Shown piece by piece: positions 990 to 28,433 of a stretch of 28,589 nt of DNA. Both the position numbers and the translations under genes were made by a program. The stretch comes from a virus: positions 1 through 28,589 of the IMG/VR virus record IMGVR_UViG_3300042868_005481; one strand, written 5' to 3'. The number at the start of each line of letters is the position of its first letter. The first letter of the stretch is position 1. Under the pieces are notes generated by a model. That model was not told where the DNA came from. It worked only from the letters and a program-made list of their open reading frames with translations, and did no database searches.

Positions 990-1017
990 AAAAAAAGCGA
1001 TATATTTCTATACCGCT
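990..1017 (-). terminator. Intrinsic terminator after the endolysin gene
   Basis: On the minus strand a 9-bp stem (AGCGGTATA with TATATCGCT, one G-T pair) closes a GAAA tetraloop and is followed by seven T residues. It lies 45 bases after the endolysin stop and would end the late transcript. The stem, stable loop and T run make this one of the clearest terminators in the window. Confidence 0.85.
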
Positions 1018-1061
1018 CTTCATCTATTAACCAACAAAATCTATTATGAAATGTAAAGATA

Positions 1062-19280: not shown

Positions 19281-19310
19281 AGCCTTAACCGAAATTAATC
19301 AGTTAAGGCT
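19281..19310 (-). terminator. Intrinsic terminator abutting the portal start codon
   Basis: A perfect 9-bp stem, AGCCTTAAC with GTTAAGGCT, with a 12-base loop, is followed on the minus strand by six T residues (down to 19276). ATG for the portal follows at 19272. It is a strong terminator by sequence, unusually placed directly before a structural gene. Confidence 0.8.
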
Positions 19311-21435: not shown

Positions 21436-21606
21436 TTAAATTTTAATACTGACTTTAATTTTACCATTATTAAATTCAAACTCTTTTATTTCTAATTTCT
21501 GCATAAACTCAAATAAGCGTTCGTAATTAACGTTTTTTGATTTTCTATACTGAATTACTTGGGTAATAGAAACGTTTAAAATTTGCGCTAATTTGTAGTT
21601 ATTCCT
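21436..21606 (-). pseudogene. HTH regulator reading frame without a start codon
   Basis: The open frame reads RNNYKLAQILNVSITQVIQY then RKSKNVNYERLFEFMQKLEI and ends ...IKVSIKI before TAA. 'KLAQILNVSITQVIQYRKSKNVNYERLFEFM' is a good helix-turn-helix of the XRE/Cro type. No ATG, GTG or TTG lies before the HTH; the frame is closed upstream by TAG (21622-21624). AGG AAT AAC TAC occupies the spot where ATG AAT AAC TAC would give a natural start overlapping the stop of the 103-aa gene. Either the start was lost (T to G), it uses a non-standard start, or it is made by +1 frameshift from the upstream gene. It lies beside the late promoter, so it may have regulated it. Confidence 0.5.
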
Positions 21607-21910
21607 CTTTTTTAGTTTCCGCTACTGAATTAGATGTTAAACAATTTTTGTTTTCGTCAAATTTTTTAATTTGAAAGAAACCTATTCTTTTTAAACTTAA
21701 CAATTCTTTGATTGTCATTTTAGATAACAATGTATCATCGCAAATAAAAGATATTTCGTAAGTAATGTTTCCTCTTTTTATTTCATATGTAAATATTTGT
21801 GAATCATAACAAACAAACTTTGCTTTACTATAATACATTTTAAATAATCTAAATTCCTTTTCCTCTTCTTGTAAAAACTTCTTTAATCTAATTTGAAATA
21901 AATTTTCCAT
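21599..21910 (-). CDS. Hypothetical protein (103 aa), upstream partner of HTH frame
   Basis: An intact 103-aa protein: a helical charged N-terminus (LKKFLQEEEKEFRLFKMYYS), a beta-rich middle (FVCYDSQIFTYEIKRGNITY) and an acidic/Asn-rich end (NSVAETKKEE). It has three Cys and no signal peptide. The family is not recognised. It follows a good promoter (21935-21966), and its stop overlaps the HTH frame, so the pair looks like a small regulatory operon between the HNH and terminase genes. Confidence 0.6.
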   Translation of the reverse strand: MENLFQIRLKKFLQEEEKEFRLFKMYYSKAKFVCYDSQIFTYEIKRGNITYEISFICDDTLLSKMTIKELLSLKRIGFFQIKKFDENKNCLTSNSVAETKKEE

Positions 21911-21934: not shown

Positions 21935-21966
21935 CAAATTTACTAAATTGTTTTAATACTACCAAA
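21935..21966 (-). promoter_or_regulatory. Bacteroidota-type promoter before the 103-aa / HTH pair
   Basis: TTTG (21963-21966), 20 bases, TAAATTTG (21935-21942) on the minus strand fit the consensus well. The sequence around the -33 element (plus-strand ACCAAACTTTT) is identical to that at the promoter near 26783, suggesting a shared promoter class or recognition by the same factor. It lies in the 80-base gap after the HNH gene. Confidence 0.6.
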
Positions 21967-23781: not shown

Positions 23782-23943
23782 TTAATTTAAGTTAATAATA
23801 TATAATCCTCTTATGTTACTTTTTTTTAAGTCAGTTAAATATAAATCCAATACTAAAAATAGTTCTACGCTTATCTTCTCGGTTTCAAAATCATTACATA
23901 ATTTATCGTGCCAATATTGTAGCAAATCAAAATGGCACTTCAT
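23782..23943 (-). CDS. Small hypothetical protein (about 53 aa)
   Basis: The frame overlaps the 3' end of the primase-helicase gene. I prefer ATG 23943 (MKCHFDLLQYWHDKLCNDFE), giving a 17-base overlap; ATGs at 23949 and 23970 would extend it into the helicase end as low-quality sequence. It is helical and rich in Asp, Leu and Tyr (VELFLVLDLYLTDLKKSN). No family is recognised. It ends six bases before the winged-helix gene. Confidence 0.5.
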   Translation of the reverse strand: MKCHFDLLQYWHDKLCNDFETEKISVELFLVLDLYLTDLKKSNIRGLYIINLN

Positions 23944-25762
23944 CTTCATCGTTATATGGTAAATCATCAAAAACTCCTTTCAACTCTTCCATTTTAATCA
24001 ATGGAAATGGTGCTATTTCTTCAATTAAACTATTTTCTTTTACTTCAATTTTTTGTTTATTAGCATCAATTAGATTTTCTTCTTGTGGATTTGTACCTCT
24101 TTCGTAATAACGTCCTGATGGTTTATGATAATCAAATTCTAAACTCGCTCCGATTTCACCCTGAAATGAATACTTTGTTTTTAAGTTAGTAAATTTAGTA
24201 TAACTATCTTCTCCAAAATATCGATATACACAAAATCCGTCGTGTGTTTGGTTTCTAAAATCCGCACTTCCTGAAACGTCATACAAAGTTGGTTGCTCAT
24301 ATATTCCGTTTTCTTTTTTCATTTTCGTAGGGTGTGCAATAACAATAATTAAAACATTATTTTGTTGTGCAAATTGTGTTAATCTTGATAATGTTAATCC
24401 AATATTTTCACGCTCCGTTTTGTTTCCTGAATGTTCTACTTTATTCCAAGCATCAACTACAAAAATATTAATACCAAAAGAATAAATTTGCTCTCTAAAC
24501 TTTTCAAAAATCCAATCCCAATTTGCAAACTCTCCATTTTCAGGACTTGTTAAATATAGCTTTTGATTTGCCCAACTATGAAACTGCATTATTTCCATTT
24601 TGGAAACTTTAGGTGTTTTATCAATGTCAAAGAAATAATTCTTACCAATTACTTTTTGTACGAATGTACTCATATGTAATTCCATTGGTTGATGTTCAGG
24701 ACTAAAGAAACTCGCTTTTACATCATTCTCTAAAAGATAATTTATAACTAACCATTCTGTAAAGTTTGATTTTCCGTGTGATGGTATTCCCGTACCAATA
24801 CATAAATGTCCGTACATTAATTTAAACTTATCATTCAAACAACTTAAAGCACGATTTTTAACTTCAATACAATTTGGTAAACCATCATTGTATAAGTTAA
24901 TCATTTTTTCTATTAAATCTTCAGTTGTGAAAACTCCTGAAACTGGGTATTTTTTTCTGTTGTAAATACTCTCTTTTAAAGTACCATCTTTTAAATCGTC
25001 GTTAGCATCTTTACCATTAAATAAAACTCTTTCACATCGGTAACGTCCTAAACGTTGTGCAATTTTTTCAGCTACATTGTTACCGCTTTCGTCGTTGTCA
25101 GTTGCTATGTAAAACTTTTTAACTTCCTTTAGATATTTTTCTGAATTAATCCAATAGTTATCATTATCGTTTGCACCATTTGGAATTGAAATAACGTTTT
25201 TTATTCCTACTTCATAAAGTGCCAAAACATCAAACTCTCCCTCAACTATGTAAACTTCATCTTCTCCAATAATAGAATTAATATTATAGAAAATCGGTTT
25301 ACCATTTTTTGATTGAGTAAATTTTTTGTTACCTGAACGATATTTTTTATTAACTAAAACATCGCCCTCGAAATAATTAAATACTATGTTATTTACTTCT
25401 TTGTTTAATGCTGGTTGATAAAATTTTTCTTCACTAACTCCGAAATGTTTTAACGTGTACTGATTTATTTTTCTTTCACTTTCACAATGTTTAACAAGTG
25501 CATCAGATAGGTTTGTATAATTTTTCCATTCCTGACTTGGCAAAGTATAATTGTTTTGTATTATTGATTTTTGAATGCTTTCTCTAAAAAATAAAGCATT
25601 GCAACCATCGTTAAAGCATTTTGCAGTTCCATTGTTAAACCAAACCATCAAAGACTTATCCGATTTGTTTTTTCGTGTATCCGTGCAAATCGGACATTTC
25701 ATTTTTGCCGTTCCGCTCGTTTTATTCGTTTGGATTAAATCCCAATTATGTATATTACTCAT
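23927..25762 (-). CDS. Bifunctional DNA primase-helicase (611 aa)
   Basis: Three modules as in T7 gp4-like enzymes. The N-terminal zinc-binding part has C23-P-I-C26 and C49/C54. A TOPRIM primase centre carries E174-G-E-F-D (in YIVEGEFDVL) and D222-N-D (in YIATDNDESG). A DnaB/RecA-like helicase has Walker A G323-T-G-I-P-S-H-G-K-S332, Walker B INIFVVD437AW and a following IVIAHPTKMKKENG sensor region. It would prime and unwind at the phage fork. It ends in an acidic DEDEVPF tail, a probable SSB-like contact. The start shares one base with the upstream stop. Length is normal for the group. Confidence 0.92.
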   Translation of the reverse strand: MSNIHNWDLIQTNKTSGTAKMKCPICTDTRKNKSDKSLMVWFNNGTAKCFNDGCNALFFRESIQKSIIQNNYTLPSQEWKNYTNLSDALVKHCESERKINQYTLKHFGVSEEKFYQPALNKEVNNIVFNYFEGDVLVNKKYRSGNKKFTQSKNGKPIFYNINSIIGEDEVYIVEGEFDVLALYEVGIKNVISIPNGANDNDNYWINSEKYLKEVKKFYIATDNDESGNNVAEKIAQRLGRYRCERVLFNGKDANDDLKDGTLKESIYNRKKYPVSGVFTTEDLIEKMINLYNDGLPNCIEVKNRALSCLNDKFKLMYGHLCIGTGIPSHGKSNFTEWLVINYLLENDVKASFFSPEHQPMELHMSTFVQKVIGKNYFFDIDKTPKVSKMEIMQFHSWANQKLYLTSPENGEFANWDWIFEKFREQIYSFGINIFVVDAWNKVEHSGNKTERENIGLTLSRLTQFAQQNNVLIIVIAHPTKMKKENGIYEQPTLYDVSGSADFRNQTHDGFCVYRYFGEDSYTKFTNLKTKYSFQGEIGASLEFDYHKPSGRYYERGTNPQEENLIDANKQKIEVKENSLIEEIAPFPLIKMEELKGVFDDLPYNDEDEVPF

Positions 25763-26403
25763 TACGCTGGACTATCAAAAAAAGGTTTAACAATAGTTTT
25801 ATTATTTTTATTATACCAATCAGCATTAAAACCGCTCCAACTATTCTCAATGCATTTTATTAAAACATCATTTATATTGTGTTTACTTTTTTCAACCTCT
25901 GATATAAATCTTTTAAATGCGGTTTCAGTATTAGTTGCTCTTTTTGTTTTTCTAACCTTTAACCAATCAGAAACTAAATTTTCTTTACAACCTGATTTAA
26001 TTAATGAATGGTAAAAACTAAAAGTAGGCAAAGCCGTTATATTATTGGTATTATCATTTACATTTACATTTACATTATCATTTACATTATCATTTACATT
26101 ATCAGTTGACGAAATTAAACGCTCGTTAACGCTCGTTGCATTTCGTTTACGAACTTCTGCGCTCTTTAAACCAGCTTGACGTCGTTGCTCTATTTGAGTT
26201 TCCCACTTTTGCAAATCTCTTTTTAATTGCATCTTAATAGGTTCAAATGCAATGTTTAAAAGCAACTCTTCACTTATTGGATTTTCATCATTAACGTATG
26301 CGTAAATATGTTTTAATAAACGACCAGCAACATCATCAGGTAGTTGATTAACCAAGCCTTGACTATCTGAATATAATACGAATGATTTTTTATTTTCAGC
26401 CAT
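25762..26403 (-). CDS. Replication initiator-like protein (213 aa) carrying iteron-like DNA
   Basis: The N-terminal 75 residues (KSFVLYSDSQGLVNQLPDDV, KHIYAYVNDENP, then FEPIKMQLKRDLQKWETQIE) match a domain found at the start of many Bacteroidota phage replication proteins (DUF6291-like). A basic linker (80-100) precedes a low-complexity NVNDNVNDNVNVNVNDN run (102-118). The C-terminal part (AFKRFISEVEKSKHNINDVL then ENSWSGFNADWYNKNNKT) resembles the helicase-loader or primosome-type end seen in phage O/DnaD-like proteins. The gene lies directly before the primase-helicase, sharing one base, as expected for an initiator/loader. The Asn-Val run reflects tandem DNA repeats that may be the origin. 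Confidence 0.72.
   Translation of the reverse strand: MAENKKSFVLYSDSQGLVNQLPDDVAGRLLKHIYAYVNDENPISEELLLNIAFEPIKMQLKRDLQKWETQIEQRRQAGLKSAEVRKRNATSVNERLISSTDNVNDNVNDNVNVNVNDNTNNITALPTFSFYHSLIKSGCKENLVSDWLKVRKTKRATNTETAFKRFISEVEKSKHNINDVLIKCIENSWSGFNADWYNKNNKTIVKPFFDSPA
26050..26110. repeat. Iteron-like tandem repeats inside the replication gene
   Basis: Three copies of the 12-mer ATTATCATTTAC (26050-26061, 26074-26085, 26086-26097), two half-units ATTTAC (26062-26073) and a diverged copy (26098-26110). They are AT-rich direct repeats within the initiator-like gene, the same placement as lambda ori iterons in gene O. An origin role is inferred. Confidence 0.65.
26110..26145. repeat. Tandem 10-mers flanked by inverted CGAAAT, origin candidate
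   Basis: AACGCTCGTT occurs twice head to tail (26118-26127, 26128-26137). CGAAAT (26110-26115) and ATTTCG (26140-26145) flank it as an inverted repeat. A 10-base unit cannot keep the reading frame, so the repeat is not explained by the protein and points to a DNA-level role, next to the iteron-like repeats. Confidence 0.55.
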
Positions 26404-26627
26404 TATACACTTCCTTTCATTTTTTGTTGAACGTGTAATAATGTACCTATAAGAGAATGAAGTTCTTTTTTGGTAATATTAATAGATAAAATATTACTCA
26501 AGCTATCGTTACAAAAATCTGTTTTTTGTATACCTAAATTAACAATATTAGAATCAAGTTCTAATACATAAAATTCATACTTTAAATCAGCATTGCTAAT
26601 TTCTTCTGCAATTAATCTGTGTTCCAT
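26403..26627 (-). CDS. Small hypothetical protein (74 aa) before the initiator gene
   Basis: An intact frame: MEHRLIAEEISNADLKYEFY, a strand-rich middle (VLELDSNIVNLGIQKTDFCN) and a helical end (KKELHSLIGTLLHVQQKMKG). Soluble; no family recognised. Its TAA shares a base with the initiator-like gene's ATG. It is the first gene after the putative small RNA and terminator at 26658-26752, so its expression depends on readthrough or on a start site I cannot see. Confidence 0.6.
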   Translation of the reverse strand: MEHRLIAEEISNADLKYEFYVLELDSNIVNLGIQKTDFCNDSLSNILSINITKKELHSLIGTLLHVQQKMKGSV

Positions 26628-26657
26628 TTTTAAATTATTTTAAATTAAATTATACGT

Positions 26658-26708
26658 AAAAACCCTAAATCGTTTGGCTATTGTGGAGCGCCTCCCGATT
26701 TAGGGTTT
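26658..26708 (-). terminator. Intrinsic terminator with structured loop
   Basis: A perfect 13-bp stem, AAACCCTAAATCG with CGATTTAGGGTTT, closes a 23-base loop that holds a smaller GGAG-GCG-CTCC hairpin. On the minus strand it is followed by a T5 run. It is the longest perfect stem seen in the window. Confidence 0.75.
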
Positions 26709-26752
26709 AATTTCTTTAGTGTTGTTTTGTATTAGGCTCCACTCCAATACAA
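26658..26752 (-). ncRNA. Candidate small RNA or attenuator, two hairpins with complementary loops
   Basis: Downstream of a strong promoter, a roughly 95-base region without ORFs begins with a hairpin (TTGTATT / AATACAA, 26727-26752) and ends with the 13-bp terminator stem. Loop 1 and loop 2 contain the exact complementary 7-mers GTGGAGC and GCTCCAC (26736-26742 and 26683-26689), allowing a kissing contact. It could be a stand-alone small RNA, an attenuator for replication genes, or a put-like antitermination element. No known family is recognised. Confidence 0.55.
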
Positions 26753-26755
26753 TCA

Positions 26756-26786
26756 CAAAGTTAATCAATTATTCCAATATACCAAA
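26756..26786 (-). promoter_or_regulatory. Strong Bacteroidota-type promoter before the candidate small RNA
   Basis: TTTG (26783-26786), 19 bases, TAACTTTG (26756-26763) on the minus strand match the consensus completely. The expected start lies near 26750-26752, exactly at the first base of hairpin 1. The -33 context ACCAAACTTTT (plus strand) also occurs at the 21963 promoter. Confidence 0.7.
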
Positions 26787-27989: not shown

Positions 27990-28433
27990 TTAAAAACTAA
28001 TGCTTAAACTACTTTTTCTCGGTGTTGTTGAAACTTTAGGAACTAATACACCGCTTTCGTCGTATATCTCTTTATCTGACTTTAAAGCAAGTTTTAAAAG
28101 TTCTTCACGTTCTTTTAACTCTTTTTGGATATCGCTCCAAATTTCGCATTCTTTGTAGTTTATCGTTTCTCCACCATTTCTAAACGTTCCTTTTAATCCA
28201 AACTCTTCAAAGTTTTCTTGTGGCAATACTTTTAAAAGTTCTTCGTTAATAACTTCCAACGCCTCGCTCATTCGTTTAGCTTGTGAAAGTAGTTCGTATT
28301 TATTTACTTTACCCTCTTCTAAAATATCGGTAATAAACTTTTTACTACTAAATTGAATTTCTTTTTTATTAGGTAAGAAATTTTGTGTTTGTATTTCTTG
28401 TTGACGCATCAACTCAAATAATCCTTTACTCAT
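27990..28433 (-). CDS. Coiled-coil early protein upstream of ERF (147 aa)
   Basis: A charged helical protein: LFELMRQQEIQTQNFLPNKK, a central helix ELLSQAKRMSEALEVINEEL, and a segment FRNGGETINYKECEIWSDIQ followed by KELKEREELLKLALKSDKEI. The last part resembles the 'G..Y.Y....W..I...I...E..LK' pattern of phage proteins that sit beside annealing recombinases. It ends Ser-rich (STTPRKSSLSISF). A role as a recombination accessory or nuclease modulator is suggested by context only. It is separated from ERF by 51 bases. Confidence 0.65.
   Translation of the reverse strand: MSKGLFELMRQQEIQTQNFLPNKKEIQFSSKKFITDILEEGKVNKYELLSQAKRMSEALEVINEELLKVLPQENFEEFGLKGTFRNGGETINYKECEIWSDIQKELKEREELLKLALKSDKEIYDESGVLVPKVSTTPRKSSLSISF

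Follow-up and report, generated by a model that had tools for sequence, protein, structure and literature searches.

Kissing-hairpin leaders, an apparently undescribed RNA family in front of early genes of Bacteroidota phages

The window analyzed here (the whole 28,589-nt stretch of the viral record IMGVR_UViG_3300042868_005481) contains a short segment between two genes of its minus strand. A sequence-only reading had described it as an ORF-free RNA that starts at a full Bacteroidota promoter, begins with one hairpin and ends with a terminator hairpin, the two loops being complementary, and had proposed that it is a small RNA, an attenuator of the replication operon or a put-like antitermination RNA. 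We asked whether this RNA and the pairing of its loops are real, and what the element may do to the genes that follow it.

The element is encoded by the minus strand and corresponds to an RNA of approximately 95 bases, in which a linker joins two hairpins with mutually complementary loops (Table 1). The promoter, called on the generally known consensus of Bacteroidota promoters, is complete: TTTG (the −33 box) and TAACTTTG (the −7 box) are separated by 19 nt, and only 3 nt lie between the latter and hairpin 1, the stem of which comprises 9 bp including one G-U pair. No ORF of at least 50 aa was found across the element. Its fold (−31.1 kcal/mol, z = −5.3) was not equalled by any of 200 shuffled sequences, and when the two loops were shuffled, a complement of 7 or more nucleotides arose in 0.27% of trials. 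In these points the original description proved accurate. The 13-bp outer stem of hairpin 2 is perfect as well; the tail that follows it is TTACGTA, and the T run reaches a length of 5 only if the last three T residues, which are paired within the stem, are counted.

The interior of hairpin 2 consists of a GGA/AAA internal loop, an inner stem (GGC, 26692-26690, and GCC, 26678-26676) and the kissing loop. An inner 4-bp hairpin, GGAG/CTCC, had been suggested to compete with the contact between the loops. It can be formed by the window sequence, but it is absent from the MFE structure and is not conserved. The relatives described below conserve a different, covarying inner stem (GGC/GCC, AGCG/CGCT or GGTA/TACC), which holds the kissing strand, and a built-in competition is therefore not supported.

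Table 1. Coordinates of the window element, of neighbouring genes and of elements in cultured phages (positions without an accession or locus refer to the window).
Feature	Position	Strand	Remarks
Promoter, Bacteroidota type	26756..26786	-	TTTG 26786-26783, 19-nt spacer, TAACTTTG 26763-26756
Hairpin 1	26727..26752	-	stem TTGTATTGG/CTAATACAA, loop AGTGGAGC; starts approximately at the expected transcription start
Kissing strand, loop 1	26736..26742	-	GTGGAGC; compensated in relatives
Single-stranded linker	26709..26726	-	18 nt
Hairpin 2, terminator-like	26660..26708	-	perfect 13-bp outer stem; AAACCCTAAATCG-GGAGGCGCTCCACAATAGCCAAA-CGATTTAGGGTTT
Kissing strand, loop 2	26683..26689	-	GCTCCAC; exact complement of loop 1; compensated in relatives
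U-rich 3' end	26652..26662	-	TTTTTACGTAT; first three T paired within the stem
Upstream gene, 95 aa	26803..27090	-	stop codon just before the promoter; homologues yielded the first relatives
Downstream gene, 74 aa	26403..26627	-	phrog_7002, unknown function; start codon 32 nt past hairpin 2
Replication initiation/primosomal-type protein	25762..26403	-	phrog_6451, phrog_678 O-like
Primase/helicase	23927-25762	-	follows the replication protein gene
FCV-1 element	KY979235 35875-35971		cultured phage
filifjonk9-1 element	MN812206 13873-13968		cultured phage
lillamy9-1 element	MN812212 14110-14205		cultured phage
tooticki6-1 element	NC_048844 12637-12732		cultured phage
Olleya phage Harreka_1 element	L298:4082-4170		cultured phage
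elemoA_13-1B element	L299:6661-6562	-	cultured phage; identified by eye
Cellulophaga phi19:3 element	L300:4098-4018	-	cultured phage; identified by eye; hairpin 1 very short

The genes for the replication protein and the primase/helicase are the presumed target operon of the window element, and in many relatives the replication-protein gene (MAENKKSF...) is directly preceded by an element of its own. No second kissing-hairpin element with a promoter was found elsewhere in the window. Another full promoter of the same type (TTTG, 19 nt, TAAATTTG) is present at 21942 (minus strand), directly before the ORF 21599-21910, and carries no element, so that kissing hairpins are not obligate companions of promoters in this phage. 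Two ordinary terminator-like hairpins (19281-19310 and 992-1021, minus strand) are candidate ends of operons.

The first relatives were obtained from viral contigs encoding homologues of the upstream 95-aa protein. The stop codon of this gene is followed by the same plan with different loops, such as GTGAGATTT/AAATCTCAC in locus L002 and GTGGACG/CGTCCAC in L004; the pair CTACCAC/GTGGTAG of L037 is of the opposite sense, and Flavobacterium columnare phage FCV-1 carries GTAGAGAG/CTCTCTAC. Searches with the Erf protein and the replication protein brought in further loci. The neighbours 27990-28433 and 26403-26627, when used as queries, contributed few others, and an exact pattern search of viral contigs with the loop-1 hairpin gave no match. 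A finder requiring hairpin 1, hairpin 2 and complementary loops detected 100 elements, compared with 8 in Markov-shuffled sequence at equal score, and the box TAnnTTTG lay directly upstream of 85 of these 100 high-scoring elements vs none of the 8 from the shuffled controls. We collected 107 distinct sequences with a promoter box and retained 102 as genuine; they were deduplicated by identity only, and not all of them are independent. Approximately 40 different loop pairs are represented (the count for the first 64 candidates was 41, including a few spurious ones).

The sequence-only reading was thus right that the element is real, but by treating a single locus it underestimated what is a multi-copy family: 29 loci contain two or three elements, located before unrelated early genes and with loops that do not cross-pair. 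Neither the window nor 12 loci that contain the subtypes had an Rfam 15 match at the gathering threshold, and a relaxed Rfam search of the window returned chance matches only. No description of such elements was found in the open-access literature (the motifs of a 224-motif survey were checked through Rfam alone). We conclude that kissing-hairpin leaders constitute a real, apparently undescribed RNA family.

Since the finder itself selects for complementarity, the pairing of the loops was assessed in three other ways. (i) When the hairpins following the promoter were chosen by their stems only, loop complementarity of at least 6 nt was present in 52 and of at least 7 nt in 41 of 89 candidates; permuted pairings of these candidates lead one to expect 5.0 and 1.2, respectively. 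(ii) Subtype alignments were prepared for type E (22 sequences), type A, which includes the window element (19), and type C (20). Changes on both sides were seen in 6/7 kissing pairs of type E, 6/8 of type A and 2/6 of type C, and the signal of covariation was lost when the partner columns were slid by 1-3 positions. At the kissing positions 100% (type E), 98.7% (type A) and 100% (type C) of the alignment cells were paired. These alignments keep some of the bias of the finder, which admitted only Watson-Crick loop matches. (iii) Covariance models R1 (type E) and R2 (type A) were built from the nested stems only, without the kissing pairs. They recovered elements that the finder had missed (e.g. 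in L216, L246, L268, L271, L222, L053, L071 and L092), and the loop pairs of their matches were complementary over 6-10 nt in 16 of 16 distinct cases for R1 (E≤0.0012) and in all 39 of the listed gene-strand matches with E≤0.05 for R2 (approx. 29 distinct pairs). Three R1 matches with E near 0.9 had no alignable loops.

The relatives therefore support real pairing of the exactly complementary 7-mers of the window; the covariance search in related phages that had been recommended as a check revealed loops that vary with compensation. Some near-identical elements are one compensated pair apart (GTGGAAG in L049 vs GTGGACG in L127; GCTTCTCAC in L066 vs GCTTCTGAC in L144). The base pairs of hairpin 1 (helix 1) covary as well, and in helix 3 (hairpin 2) 12 of 17 pairs are changed on both sides. 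In one subtype, the mean entropy of the kissing pairs was 0.73 bits vs 0.80 and 1.31 bits for the stems. The kissing positions there are about as variable as the stems, which indicates that it is the fold that matters but does not tell what reads it; a diversification of the loops of the kind associated with immunity was rejected for this subtype, as the kissing pairs vary no more than the stem pairs. In host chromosomes, R2 (150 genomes of the genus) and R1 (295 genomes of the class) gave no match, a weak negative result, since few candidates per genome were scored and an empty outcome carries no weight unless a positive control accompanies it.

The order of parts is the same throughout the family: a TAnnTTTG promoter, hairpin 1, hairpin 2, a U-tract and a start codon. 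A TTG is located 18-22 nt ahead of TAnnTTTG in 63/102 elements (10% in the background), and the gap between the promoter box and hairpin 1 is 2-7 nt in most of them; in type E it is 10 nt, which a GTTAAC...GTTAA extension of the stem reduces to approximately 4. The linker has a median length of 17 nt in the relatives, and most linkers of at least 28 nt contain an additional hairpin, which leaves a shorter single-stranded stretch. Such small hairpins were seen in L037:3396 and L038:1707 (also in L163 and L111), as if this stretch were kept short.

In hairpin 2, an internal loop generally separates the outer stem from a short covarying inner stem, which carries the kissing loop. The internal loop is GGA/AAA in type A and AGUA/GAA, the sarcin-ricin/loop E signature, in other subtypes. 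We observed AGUA/GAA between the outer and kissing stems in L064:2192-2276, L052, L057, L065, L067, L152, L162, L177, L180 and L298:4082-4170; it is possibly a protein-binding or bending module.

Following the stem of hairpin 2, T accounts for 71-84% at positions 1-7 and for 24-29% at positions 10-14 of the 102 relatives, compared with 16-52% before other genes of the same loci, where the sequence is A-rich. The anatomy of an intrinsic terminator (a GC-containing stem with an immediate U-tract) is thus present in the family. It is perfect in type E, in which both loops are exactly 7 nt long and fully Watson-Crick paired and a 14-17-bp stem is followed by T6-7 and then directly by ATG, and it is weak in the window copy. 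U-tracts of the window's subtype are often interrupted (TTACG, CACTTTTT), and termination may consequently be weak there.

A gene on the same strand lies directly downstream of 101 of the 102 elements, with its start codon a median of 16 nt on (7-42 nt from the 10th to the 90th percentile), whereas the upstream gene lies at widely varying distances (median 94). The downstream genes, named by eye from their N-termini, vary: they include replication protein, phrog_7002-like, MSKDLFQLMRQQ, METLLK, HNH-like and helicase-like ORFs. Given this variety, and given that one and the same gene may be preceded by different subtypes, the element has the character of a portable cassette. A recurring ATAGTTTATAGGTATCTTAAAACCTT, which could form a third small hairpin, was noted between hairpin 2 and the ATG in L002:3434-3475 and in many type-A relatives with MAKFELRF-type genes.

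Among the roles proposed earlier, attenuation of the replication operon fits best, because the start codon follows so closely and in one subtype the U-tract abuts the AUG; a function solely as a small RNA is less probable, given how closely the element adjoins the gene behind it. Attenuator anatomy is present, i.e. a terminator between promoter and gene on one transcript: transcription begins in hairpin 1 and may stop at the U-tract following hairpin 2, failing which it proceeds straight into the gene. From this layout we lean, with modest confidence, towards the view that the element is a cis-acting leader RNA serving as a conditional terminator that gates early phage genes. The promoter-proximal terminator hairpin would be tied by the kissing loop to the hairpin formed by the first bases of the transcript. 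RNA polymerase would pause at the U-tract, and the two-hairpin complex would decide between a stop, with release of the ~95-nt RNA, and read-through into the gene. Since complementarity is strictly demanded whatever the sequence, what is read is presumably the kissing fold and not the loop sequence, and it would be read at several leaders per genome, the most likely reader being a factor of phage or host origin, or RNA polymerase itself.

Hairpin 2 is not simply the terminator of the upstream transcript, since a conventional terminator of its own is already present just before the promoter of the element in 12/101 cases (vs 1.2% at random places). Such upstream terminators, approximately tenfold more frequent than at random places, were seen e.g. 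in L042, L072, L099, L122, L125 and L296. No conserved alternative (antiterminator) stem was seen in the subtype alignments. According to a rough geometric estimate from the linker, the kissing fold and a complete hairpin 2 can coexist in 82/102 elements, so that there is no obvious reason why kissing should prevent termination. The idea that the kissing fold excludes the terminator geometrically was rejected: in most elements the linker is sufficiently long, and linker length shows no correlation with arm length. More tentatively, the leaders may represent a new RNA control device, in which a kissing loop within the molecule would determine what happens at the terminator. Bacteroidota phages would use it as a portable promoter-leader cassette in front of many early genes, and a single common factor, or RNA polymerase directly, would recognize its three-dimensional fold and not its sequence.

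Several other readings have to be weighed against the conditional terminator. The released 95-nt RNA might act in trans, pairing through its loops with a nascent or full leader in the manner of IsrK or P4 CI RNA, with the gene expressed by read-through; it would thereby exert feedback on the replication genes or confer immunity. The order promoter, short RNA, terminator, gene, with complementary parts on one transcript, resembles that of the Gifsy-1 IsrK and P4 leaders (PMC4825925), the leader does precede replication genes, and self-complementary loops could also pair between molecules. We nevertheless regard this as unlikely: in the subtype measured the kissing pairs diversify no faster than the stems, contrary to a specificity of the immunity type, the elements stand tight before a gene of the same strand, the linker is of a length that suits pairing inside one molecule, and the several copies per locus have loops without cross-pairing. 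An antisense partner of the window element was also considered and rejected, as no TAnnTTTG promoter with an upstream TTG was found on the nearby plus strand.

In put-like processive antitermination, a reading that we consider rather improbable, the two hairpins of the nascent RNA would attach to RNA polymerase and carry it past downstream pauses and terminators without a protein factor. The put RNAs of HK022 are two RNAs of ~70 nt, with putL just downstream of PL, that bind the zinc-binding domain of the RNA polymerase beta prime subunit (PMC9378689), and the site after early phage promoters, the similar length and the two-hairpin plan are shared by our elements. Their presence at several early promoters of one phage and a conservation that is bound to the fold and free of sequence would suit polymerase binding as well. 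However, the U-tract conserved at the foot of hairpin 2 is a feature to be expected in a terminator but not in an RNA that binds polymerase. The source on put (PMC9378689) makes no mention of pairing between loops, and the early operon of the window contains few strong terminators to pass.

There is little to recommend a third reading, in which a structured 5' end guards early mRNAs, or hairpin 2 controls the access of ribosomes, with termination being incidental. Hairpin 1 does begin at approximately +1, also in type E with its extended stem, and hairpin 2 mostly ends within a few tens of nucleotides of the AUG, but the U-tract after hairpin 2, so unlike the A-rich sequence before other genes, is left unexplained. 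Finally, single 7-mer matches between loops do arise by chance at ~0.3%, but the shuffled controls, the promoters that accompany the elements, the stem-only test, the strong covariation and the R1 and R2 matches rule out chance inverted repeats in an AT-rich phage genome.

To our knowledge, gene timing in Bacteroidota phages is little understood. The fold is shared by cultured phages from several genera and is present in several copies per genome; it gives a testable way into the control of early genes and may be a new example of a polymerase controlled through the tertiary structure of nascent RNA. Its ~40 natural loop pairs, all different from one another, might also find use as orthogonal switches in Bacteroidota. 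The family also improves phage annotation, as the leaders are unannotated in five cultured phages (FCV-1, filifjonk9-1, lillamy9-1, tooticki6-1 and Harreka_1).

How do these leaders compare with known systems? The RT-14 RNA of Rfam (RF02921) matches L064:2153-2276 with 32.2 bits, and an AGUAG...CGAA hairpin is common to both. As the gathering score of 48.1 is not reached and the model places most of its first hairpin over the promoter, the L064 element is not a member of RT-14. In ColE1 RNA I/RNA II the loop sequence is free and complementarity is fixed. The type E leaders resemble this pair in their 7-nt, fully Watson-Crick paired loops, but carry both loops on one RNA, whereas the ColE1 RNAs are two molecules from opposite strands; as stated above, no opposite-strand promoter was found near the window element. 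In attenuators of the pT181/pIP501 type, a terminator in the leader of a replication gene is controlled by RNA pairing via a countertranscript. A terminator in a replication-gene leader is shared with our element, for which, unlike in those plasmids, no countertranscript is apparent.

Like Gifsy-1 IsrK and P4 CI-seqA-seqC, the leaders described here would combine a phage promoter, a short RNA reaching to an intrinsic terminator and read-through into a gene, with complementary parts on the same transcript; the P4 version controls replication genes. What sets our leaders apart is that complementarity resides in the loops of two hairpins contained in ~90 nt, an arrangement suited to cis pairing, and that one genome carries several elements with different loops. 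Compared by description, the likeness to HK022 putL/putR comprises an RNA of roughly 70-95 nt with two hairpins, a position after early phage promoters, more than one copy per phage and a proposed action on the transcribing polymerase; in this general layout the element agrees with put. Unlike put as described, the element has a terminator U-tract and loop-loop kissing, and the host belongs to a different phylum. By Rfam and the searchable open literature the RNA family is new, and in kind it would be a variant of the phage leader RNAs that act on transcription elongation.
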